Shown one piece after another: positions 38,319 through 44,961 of a stretch of DNA of 64,000 nucleotides. This DNA comes from Acetatifactor sp. GTDB taxonomy: Bacteria; Bacillota; Clostridia; Lachnospirales; Lachnospiraceae. The notes below the pieces were generated by a model. It was not told the DNA's origin, did not search any database, and saw nothing but the letters and a program-made list of their open reading frames with translations. The translations under genes and the position numbers were made by a program. How positions within the stretch are numbered: position 1 is the first letter of the stretch; each line of letters opens with the position of its first letter. Location of the stretch: contig JAFLRM010000001.1 of assembly GCA_022511465.1 (NCBI GenBank), positions 1-64,000 on the forward strand. Reading direction: 5' to 3'.

Positions 38319-39057
38319 TATCATCACGGTGGCATACAACAGCGAGATGTCCATCGGACACACCATGGAGTCCGTTCTGGGTCAGACCTTCCCGGATGGC
38401 AGGGTGACACTGGAATACTTGATCATAGATGGGAAAAGCAAGGATCGCACCGTGGAAGTGGCGGAGAGCTACAGGGAGGCATTTGAGAAAAAAGGGATTA
38501 CCCTTCGCGTGTTCAGTGAACCGGATGAGGGGATCTACGACGCCATGAACAAAGGTATACGTCTGGCACAGGGCGAGATCATTGGAATATTAAACAGCGA
38601 TGACTGGTATGAGCCGGACACGGTGCAAGTCGTGGTGGAAACCTTTGAGCGGGAGGACTGCGACCTTTTGTACGCCGATATCCGCGTGCACAAGGTAAAC
38701 GGCAACACCTTTGTCAAGAAGGCGAGGAATCGCAACTTTGAGACCTCCAGAGACTGGAATCATCCCACCACCTTTGTGAGGGCAGAACTGTATAAGAAGT
38801 ACCCCTTCCGCGATCTGGGAATCCATGATGATTACGGTTTTTTCCTTCAGATGAAGAAGCAGAAGCGAAGGATTGTGATCGTGAACAAGGTGCTGGCCAA
38901 TTTCCGTATGGGGGGAGCCAGCAATCAAAAGAGCCTGAAGGCAGCCGTGAAACGCATTCAGGACCGTTACCACTATTGCTACCGCATCAATGGCTACAGC
39001 AGATGGTATCTGTTGGAATGTGTGGCGATCGAAGCGGCCAAGATGATCTTGGGATGA
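38308..39057 (+). CDS. GT2 family glycosyltransferase (WcaA-like)
   Basis: VSIITVAYNSEMSIGHTMESVLGQTF, YLIIDGKSKDRT, NSDDWYEPD. Confidence 0.93.
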   Translation: MRVSIITVAYNSEMSIGHTMESVLGQTFPDGRVTLEYLIIDGKSKDRTVEVAESYREAFEKKGITLRVFSEPDEGIYDAMNKGIRLAQGEIIGILNSDDWYEPDTVQVVVETFEREDCDLLYADIRVHKVNGNTFVKKARNRNFETSRDWNHPTTFVRAELYKKYPFRDLGIHDDYGFFLQMKKQKRRIVIVNKVLANFRMGGASNQKSLKAAVKRIQDRYHYCYRINGYSRWYLLECVAIEAAKMILG

Positions 39058-42962: not shown

Positions 42963-43190
42963 ATGCGCGTTGGAATTGATCTATTGTGGGTTAGGCCAGG
43001 TCTTTGTGGCGGCACAGAGTCTTTTATCCGCAGTATTTTTGTCAAGAAAGCAAGGCTGCGCAGATTTGAGACTTCCCGGGACTGTGATCATCCTACCACC
43101 TTTGTTCGGGCGGAACTTTGCAAGGAATTTCCGTTTTGAGACCTGGGAATCCATGATGACTACGGTTTTTTTCTGTAAATGAAGCCTCAG
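42963..43190 (+). pseudogene. Chimeric GT4-GT2 glycosyltransferase pseudogene
   Basis: MRVGIDLLWVRPGLCGGTESFIRSIF (GT4 N-terminus) fused in frame to VKKARLRRFETSRDCDHPTTFVRAELCKEFPF*DLGIHDDYGFFL*MK, matching VKKARNRNFETSRDWNHPTTFVRAELYKKYPFRDLGIHDDYGFFLQMK of the GT2 at 38308-39057. Confidence 0.88.
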
Positions 43191-43208
43191 GTAATTGTAC
43201 CTGAGGCT
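43183..43208. repeat. 11-bp perfect inverted repeat
   Basis: agcctcaggta-attg-tacctgaggct; no T-tract on either side. Confidence 0.75.
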
Positions 43209-43248: not shown

Positions 43249-43277
43249 TTGAAAAAATACATCAATTGATGCATAAT
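43249..43277 (+). promoter_or_regulatory. Promoter of toxin-antitoxin module with embedded palindrome
   Basis: TTGAAA 43249-43254, 17-nt spacer, CATAAT 43272-43277; perfect CATCAATTGATG palindrome 43260-43271 inside the spacer. Confidence 0.6.
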
Positions 43278-43321
43278 ATTAGATATAAGAATTAAATGAT
43301 ACAAAGGAAAGGAGGAGAAGG

Positions 43322-43717
43322 ATGACGAATCCGAATAGCTTTATTGAATTAAAAGAAAATGTGCAAAGGCATTTGGAAGATGTCAAAAATGCTCTAGACT
43401 CTCCCAATTGCCAAATTGACATTTTGCCCACCAAGAAAGGACAGTCAGAAACGGATCCTTACTCTACGGCGTACACAATGTTGAAGCTGGAATATGATAG
43501 TTCAGATGTCAAAGAGGTTCTGAAAAAGCTAAAAGTCGAAGATTATATTGAAAGTATCAAAGATAATAGAAAGATCGACAGCCCCCCATTTTGGGTGTTT
43601 GGCACTGAAATATCTGAAAATCAAATTTATATAAAAGAAAAATTACGAGACCATAATAATATATTTTGTGTTTCGTTTCATTTTCCGAAATACCCGCTTA
43701 AAAAGGGGCCTTATTGA
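43322..43717 (+). CDS. MqsR-like toxin (type II TA, RelE/MqsR fold ribonuclease family)
   Basis: LKLEYDSSDVKEVLKKLKVEDYIESIKDN...PPFWVFGTEISENQIYIKEKLRDHNNIFCVSFHFPKYPL matches the MqsR family pattern; followed by a MqsA-like gene. Confidence 0.75.
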   Translation: MTNPNSFIELKENVQRHLEDVKNALDSPNCQIDILPTKKGQSETDPYSTAYTMLKLEYDSSDVKEVLKKLKVEDYIESIKDNRKIDSPPFWVFGTEISENQIYIKEKLRDHNNIFCVSFHFPKYPLKKGPY

Positions 43718-43748
43718 TGGTTTACTACAGATGAATACTATAAATTCT

Positions 43749-43768
43749 CAGGGAGATGTTTCTCCCTG
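43749..43768 (+). repeat. Hairpin between toxin and antitoxin genes
   Basis: cagggaga-tgtt-tctccctg perfect 8-bp stem. Confidence 0.7.
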
Positions 43769-43869
43769 GAGGATTTTATACATAAAGCATATTATATGCT
43801 AGTATGGAGACTACTATTAAAATGAATATTCTAGATACTAATTTAGCAATATTGCAGGAGGAAAAAAAT

Positions 43870-44898
43870 ATGGAAAGAGAGGAGAAGAAAACACTTTTGT
43901 ATAATTGTCCATTTTGTGAAGAGATGCATGAAGTTCAGATCAAAGATTATTGGGCAAGAACAACGGTAAAAGAAGAAGAAGTGGAATATCAAAAGACTGT
44001 TTACTATTGTGGACAAAGTGATGAAGAATTTACGCCTGCAGATATTATGGATGTTAATTTATTGAAGGCGAGAGATGCCTATCGTAGAAAGAAGAATTTT
44101 TTGACTTCGGGGGATATCAAAGCAATAAGGACAAAATATGATTTGACGCAAAAGGAATATGCAAGGCTTTTGGGTGTTGGAGATGCAACAATTCAGCGAT
44201 ATGAGACCAAGGCAATACAGGACAATATATATGATAATTTGATGCGATTGACGAATCAAAATCCGAGCTATTGTCTTGAACTTCTTGAACAAAACAAAGC
44301 AGCATTTGAAAGTGCAAGATACGAACAGATCAAAAGAGGTGTTGCCTATCAAATTAAGCTGTACGGTGAAGATTTTTACTTGGAAGAAGCGATTAAGGTA
44401 AAATATGTGGATTATGATGATTGCAACAGTTGCAATGGATATATTCTGCTAAGCTTGGATAAGGTGAAAAATCTATTAGTTTATTTTGCCACATACATTC
44501 CGGAGTTATATAAAGTAAAATTAATGAAGCTGCTATGGTATACAGATGCTGAATCATATCGCCAATATGGTCATTCTATTACCGGATTAGTGTATCAACA
44601 TATGCCGTTAGGCGCTGTGCCAATAGCCCATAACGAAATTATGGGATTGGGCTGTATAAAAGTAGAAGAGCAAGTGCATGATGATTATGTTGCCCAGAGA
44701 GTGTATCCGAATAAGAATATCAGCATAAATAACTTTTCAATAGAAGAGCTTGGAGTCTTACAAAGAGTGACAGAGAAATTTATACACTATTCTACCAAAA
44801 AGATAGTGGAATATATGCATGAGGAAACAGCATATAAGTGCACCGGACCAAATGAGATTATAGAGTTTACAAATAAAAATAAGATAAGAAATCTATAA
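43870..44898 (+). CDS. MqsA-type (YgiT zinc finger + HTH) antitoxin fused to a Panacea/DUF4065 domain
   Basis: CPFCEEMHEV...YYCGQSDEEF zinc-binding Cys pairs; LTSGDIKAIRTKYDLTQKEYARLLGVGDATIQRYETKAIQD HTH; KVKNLLVYFATYIPELYKVKLMKLLWYTDAESYRQYGHSITGLVYQHMPLGAVP DUF4065; ATG 43870 has aggagg RBS. Confidence 0.82.
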   Translation: MEREEKKTLLYNCPFCEEMHEVQIKDYWARTTVKEEEVEYQKTVYYCGQSDEEFTPADIMDVNLLKARDAYRRKKNFLTSGDIKAIRTKYDLTQKEYARLLGVGDATIQRYETKAIQDNIYDNLMRLTNQNPSYCLELLEQNKAAFESARYEQIKRGVAYQIKLYGEDFYLEEAIKVKYVDYDDCNSCNGYILLSLDKVKNLLVYFATYIPELYKVKLMKLLWYTDAESYRQYGHSITGLVYQHMPLGAVPIAHNEIMGLGCIKVEEQVHDDYVAQRVYPNKNISINNFSIEELGVLQRVTEKFIHYSTKKIVEYMHEETAYKCTGPNEIIEFTNKNKIRNL

Positions 44899-44914
44899 TT
44901 TCTAAATTTTACGT

Positions 44915-44961
44915 AAAAATCAATAGTTTTATGGAGGATATCCATAAAACTATTGATTTTT
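44915..44961. terminator. Strong, potentially bidirectional intrinsic terminator
   Basis: aaaaatcaatagttttatgga-ggata-tccataaaactattgattttt: 21-bp perfect stem, A-tract and T-tract at the ends. Confidence 0.85.

Follow-up and report, generated by a model that had tools for sequence, protein, structure and literature searches.

A toxin-antitoxin cassette in a glycan gene cluster

Within the window (the whole stretch of DNA analysed, 64,000 nt), inspection of the open reading frames reveals an intact two-gene toxin-antitoxin cassette at 43249-44961, inside a sugar-polymer (glycan) gene cluster. It is flanked on one side by a lipoprotein-like gene and on the other by a run of glycan genes comprising a hexapeptide transferase, two glycosyltransferases, and a putative flippase, the last named from its sequence only. 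No chaperone gene adjoins the cassette among the neighbouring genes examined. The DNA ahead of the cassette carries a scar (42963-43184, forward strand). Its first part (42963..43037) corresponds to codons 1-25 of a glycosyltransferase and shows 73% nucleotide identity, across the junction, to an intact gene in a related locus, L114, where the whole glycosyltransferase stands at the same place behind the same lipoprotein-like gene. In the window, this gene is cut after ~25 codons and is followed by an internal 147-nt piece of a family 2 glycosyltransferase (43038..43184), which has stop codons inside and is 77.6% identical to 38710-38856, and then by the cassette. Since two glycosyltransferase pieces lie upstream and the first of them is whole in L114, the cassette site can be regarded as a rearranged, variable spot. 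A perfect 11-bp hairpin, AGCCTCAGGTA/TACCTGAGGCT, is also located just 5' of the cassette promoter (43183-43208) and has no clear T-run.

The upstream gene (43322..43717, forward strand) is preceded by an AGGAGG ribosome-binding site and encodes a 131-aa protein predicted to be an MqsR-like RNase toxin. The protein matches Pfam MqsR_toxin (PF15723) with an E-value of 1.8e-5 and a score of 25.5 bits that falls slightly short of the curated cut-off of 26.2, and 16 of 50 aligned toxin proteins match this model at E ≤ 1e-3. When the toxin sequence was compared with the PDB, only chance matches were returned, so its fold was compared instead. An AlphaFold2 model built from the 50 aligned proteins has a pLDDT of 95.5 and a pTM of 0.89. 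When the whole PDB was searched with this model by Foldseek, both MqsR chains of 3hi2, the E. coli MqsR:MqsA complex, came out on top with a probability of 1.00 and a TM-score of 0.70-0.71 by target length, and the remaining matches were far weaker. In a profile-profile comparison, the expected region of E. coli MqsR was aligned, at a low probability (27%); taken by itself, the sequence evidence is weak. According to our modeling, the toxin has the MqsR fold. The preliminary description had proposed an MqsR-like toxin and had named a first ORF outside the MqsR fold as the finding that would speak against it; the fold comparison, with 3hi2 ranking first, supports the proposal.

The downstream gene (43870..44898, forward strand) encodes a 342-aa antitoxin with a zinc finger at about residues 1-66, an HTH domain at about 80-140, and a Panacea domain at about 218-323. 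It matches the MqsA family model NCBIfam TIGR03830 (E 1.7e-25, 89.3 bits against a cut-off of 61.8), Pfam SocA_Panacea (PF13274) over the full model length (E 3.3e-20, 73.5 bits against a cut-off of 25.7), and Pfam HTH_3 above its cut-off, and it matches Pfam MqsA_antitoxin below the cut-off of that model. The reading frame is open from ATG 43804, the longest-ORF start, but translation likely starts at ATG 43870, because an AGGAGG at about 43857 lies just upstream of this ATG and it aligns with the starts of relatives.

The toxin stop and the antitoxin start are 152 nt apart; in 68 relatives this distance has a median of 25 and does not exceed 96. The gap contains a hairpin with 8 of 8 positions paired, CAGGGAGA-TGTT-TCTCCCTG (43749..43768, forward strand), and a 15-nt palindrome, AGCATAT-T-ATATGCT (43786..43800, forward strand, inverted repeat 7/7), which the closest relative, L028, does not have between its two genes. 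These two elements might set the toxin:antitoxin ratio. Behind the antitoxin gene, a terminator-like hairpin with a perfect 21-bp stem (21/21 inverted repeat) and a 5-nt loop (44915..44961, forward strand) closes the unit, and the hexapeptide transferase is the next gene. The earlier picture of a self-contained unit set in a glycan cluster and ending in a 21-bp-stem terminator holds.

Conservation of the pair and a candidate operator

A search with the antitoxin alignment confirmed 339 relatives in bacterial and archaeal genomes, and 80 of these loci were kept; with one viral contig they form a set of 81. Single-protein scans of genome contigs and viral contigs gave no relatives, whereas the alignment-based scans did find them. 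An MqsR-like ORF lies directly upstream of the antitoxin in 70 of the 81 related loci, which were found independently, mostly 14-36 nt ahead of the antitoxin start, confirming the toxin-first order of the preliminary description. Of the 11 loci lacking an upstream MqsR, two are truncated where their contig stops and nine appear to hold solitary antitoxins; no other toxin in the place of MqsR could be recognised by eye in these 11. The pair recurs in genomes of the same genus, and its occurrence is patchy: among 146 sampled genomes of the genus and order, the window's own included, seven have an MqsR relative and eight have the antitoxin. A plasmid search with the toxin gave no match. In addition, two unannotated human-gut (faecal) phage contigs, MT835652 (L111) and MT835488 (L112), contain the MqsR:PanA pair together with the operator described below, so phages may carry the cassette.

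A consensus scan predicts a promoter at 43249..43277 on the forward strand, with a -35 TTGAAA, a -10 CATAAT, and a spacer of 17. Nine such matches occur in the window and 9.5 are expected, so the scan alone does no better than chance, and a consensus match by itself was excluded from evidence. The predicted promoter is supported, instead, by a conserved palindrome that sits inside it. This candidate operator, CATCAATTGATG with the core ATCAATTGAT, is located between the predicted -35 and -10 (43260..43271, forward strand) and is the sole copy in the window, where 0.29 would be expected. Of 54 regions upstream of mqsR (the window's included), 50 contain the core, usually as ACTATCAATTGATAGT, and the palindrome is often doubled at a distance of 19-20 bp and frequently followed by a TATAAT-like -10. 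Exact copies of the core number 81 across the paired loci, 70 in total; each copy precedes the toxin gene, and the rest of the 434 kb of these loci has none. Eight copies that our script scored as outside are ahead of toxins for which too short an ORF had been called. Several loci without the exact core have near variants such as TATCAAATGATA, and a second antitoxin subclade has sites of the form GGTATCA-(AA/TT)-TGATACC. The claim that the unit has its own promoter is supported by the operator and not by the promoter consensus.

Because the operator is conserved ahead of mqsR, it provides good sequence evidence for autoregulation by the antitoxin, whose HTH domain would bind this DNA. Six solitary antitoxins retain the operator (L054, L060, L066, L075, L088, and L099). 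In four of them (L054, L060, L066, and L075), the operator stands immediately before a gene for a zinc-finger-HTH-Panacea protein, and autoregulation would thus seem to persist in the absence of a toxin. Of the two other genomic copies of ATCAATTGAT, one falls within a dehydrogenase-like gene and the second precedes an unrelated ORF; therefore, we do not claim a wider regulon. A literature search with the operator string returned unrelated papers only, and no mention of an operator site was found in Kurata et al. 2023 (PMC10440598).

Three further arrangements were seen. In L007 (G011 contig C46), an MqsR-like gene from the second subclade stands alone and is apparently frameshifted near its start; its operator is still present, and an IS110-type transposase gene, recognised by eye, lies behind it in the place of the antitoxin. 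In L022 (G013 contig C3:62000-68500), a second-subclade MqsR:PanA pair is located directly downstream of an AbiEi-type antitoxin-like gene, also recognised by eye. About 13 kb beyond the end of the window (G000 contig C1:77271-80071, L018:13271-16071), there is another antitoxin that shares the architecture of the window antitoxin (36% identity) and has no MqsR; a complete hipB-hipA pair (HipA_C E 9e-50) stands 129 nt ahead of it. This antitoxin has no operator palindrome of its own and may have joined a hipBA operon. Neither of the two Panacea papers searched (PMC10440598, PMC8832971) names HipA in its text among the partners of Panacea.

Comparison with known MqsR systems

The combination of MqsR with a zinc-finger, HTH, and Panacea antitoxin, which the preliminary description had set against a canonical MqsA lacking Panacea, is not novel in architecture or partner, as MqsR:PanA pairs were described and tested by Kurata et al. 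2023 (PMC10440598). Like the window cassette, the pairs of Bacillus fungorum and Lactobacillus rossiae join an MqsR toxin to a Panacea antitoxin, in other species, and the B. fungorum antitoxin has the same zinc-binding domain, HTH, and C-terminal Panacea. In B. fungorum PanA, the zinc-binding domain alone or together with the HTH neutralises the toxin, whereas Panacea alone or HTH-Panacea does not (PMC10440598). These truncations largely answer, in a homologous system, the earlier suggestion that either or both domains neutralise: the zinc-finger part stands, while the Panacea part does not. Kurata et al. favour Panacea as a sensor (PMC10440598). In PanAT systems in general, a Panacea antitoxin also adjoins a small toxin gene, and MqsR-like proteins are the commonest recognised Panacea partner (90 of 1,268 putative toxins; PMC8832971). 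Many PanA proteins, however, lack the zinc finger that the window antitoxin has, and stand-alone Panacea neutralises directly (PMC10440598). The PanA-paired MqsR of Herbaspirillum is toxic in E. coli and is not rescued by its PanA (PMC8832971). The E. coli K-12 MqsR/MqsA pair (3hi2, PMC2791442, PMC9636575) shares with the window cassette the MqsR fold, the toxin-first order, the zinc finger with HTH, and a tyrosine at the catalytic position, but its MqsA has no Panacea. MqsRAC (PMC9519451, PMC10783111) has the MqsR/MqsA core in common; the window cassette, instead, lacks the chaperone and has an antitoxin extended by Panacea.

The zinc finger departs from that of E. coli MqsA, in which four cysteines (C3, C6, C37, and C40) hold the zinc and were reported as perfectly conserved among the homologues compared at that time (PMC2791442). 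The pattern C-x2-C-x3-H...C is found in 89 of 90 antitoxin proteins, and 84 of the 90, the window's included, lack the fourth zinc cysteine; it is retained in five proteins that also have the histidine and in one relative without it. The window antitoxin thus offers C-C-H-C as candidate ligands in place of four cysteines, and the alignment suggests that the conserved histidine took over as a zinc ligand. Alternatively, the histidine might contact the toxin: in E. coli MqsA, the toxin is touched by His7, whose position is close to that of the histidine without being the same (PMC2791442). Since the fourth cysteine is absent, we call the antitoxin MqsA-like by its family model and not a canonical MqsA; the three-domain reading of the protein stands on the family matches, without the canonical four-cysteine zinc finger.

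The toxin may also depart from its E. coli counterpart. Tyr103, Lys105, and His120 are invariant in all 50 aligned toxins, and we take Tyr103 as the counterpart of E. coli Tyr81 and of the predicted catalytic tyrosine of B. fungorum MqsR, whose substitution abolishes toxicity (PMC10440598). In E. coli MqsR, Lys56 and Tyr81 are essential and the Glu/His pair of other RNases is absent (PMC9636575). By the low-probability alignment, the position of Lys56 is occupied in the window toxin by Glu77, which is found in 46 of the 50 toxins, and the clade has SFH where E. coli MqsR has SFK. A Glu/Tyr/His active site is only suggested by the sequences.

Proposed mechanism and alternatives

Taken together, the conserved pair, its domains, the predicted toxin fold, the operator, and the dissected homologue make it very probable that the cassette belongs to the MqsR:PanA (mqsRA-Panacea) class of type II toxin-antitoxin operons. 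By analogy with its homologues, MqsR would be an mRNA-cleaving RNase with a RelE-like fold, and the N-terminal zinc-finger domain of the antitoxin would bind it and block the RNA substrate. Repression of the operon would come from the HTH dimer, by itself or together with the toxin, bound to the palindrome ATCAATTGAT between the -35 and -10. The Panacea domain would be dispensable for neutralisation and, as a hypothesis only, probably senses or transmits the trigger that frees the toxin. Against this reading stand the toxin score just under the Pfam cut-off, the weak profile similarity to E. coli MqsR, the glutamate at the K56 position, the absent fourth zinc cysteine, and the unrescued Herbaspirillum MqsR (PMC8832971).

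The lost canonical zinc ligand in this clade, together with the direct neutralisation by stand-alone PanA proteins (PMC10440598), would fit a Panacea domain that itself neutralises the window toxin, alone or jointly with the zinc finger. We consider this improbable, as Panacea alone does not neutralise in the homologous B. fungorum pair (PMC10440598), and the remaining zinc-site residues are invariant in an alignment of 52 antitoxins and the zinc-finger domain is thus under selection. The toxin gene could also have decayed, leaving the antitoxin mainly as a solitary repressor, as is conceivable from the six solitary antitoxins that keep the operator and the one relative in which a lone toxin is frameshifted and adjoins an IS110-type transposase. 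However, the window toxin ORF is open behind a good ribosome-binding site, has every invariant residue of the family, and gives a confident fold, which makes decay very improbable.

An anti-phage function concerns the role of the cassette and is compatible with the MqsR:PanA mechanism. Surface glycans often serve as phage receptors, and the same pair with its operator is present on the two human-gut phage contigs. In addition, MqsRAC protects E. coli from T2 (PMC9519451, PMC10783111). Selection as an anti-phage system nevertheless seems rather unlikely, since the cassette has no adjoining chaperone gene, its neighbours are glycan genes, and PADLOC defence models give nothing beyond two HTH matches at E 0.03. 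Phage defence and retention of the locus, both raised in the preliminary description, are hypotheses only for its biological role.

The window pair is a real, intact, and, as a system, ordinary member of a type known from 2023. Our analysis adds the operator, the zinc-ligand change, a possible active-site difference, and the scar at the site, which are modest but testable. Tentatively, the mainly Bacillota MqsR:PanA systems may form a distinct subfamily with a Glu77/Tyr103/His120 site, a C-C-H-C zinc finger, and a TATCA-N2-TGATA operator, whose centre and flanks differ between the two antitoxin subclades. The conserved operator offers a simple DNA probe for locating MqsR:PanA cassettes. It would also allow any effect of Panacea on DNA binding or toxin release to be measured. 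The two subclades with slightly different operators provide a natural test of recognition specificity, and the solitary antitoxins with their operators suggest that the regulator can outlive the toxin.
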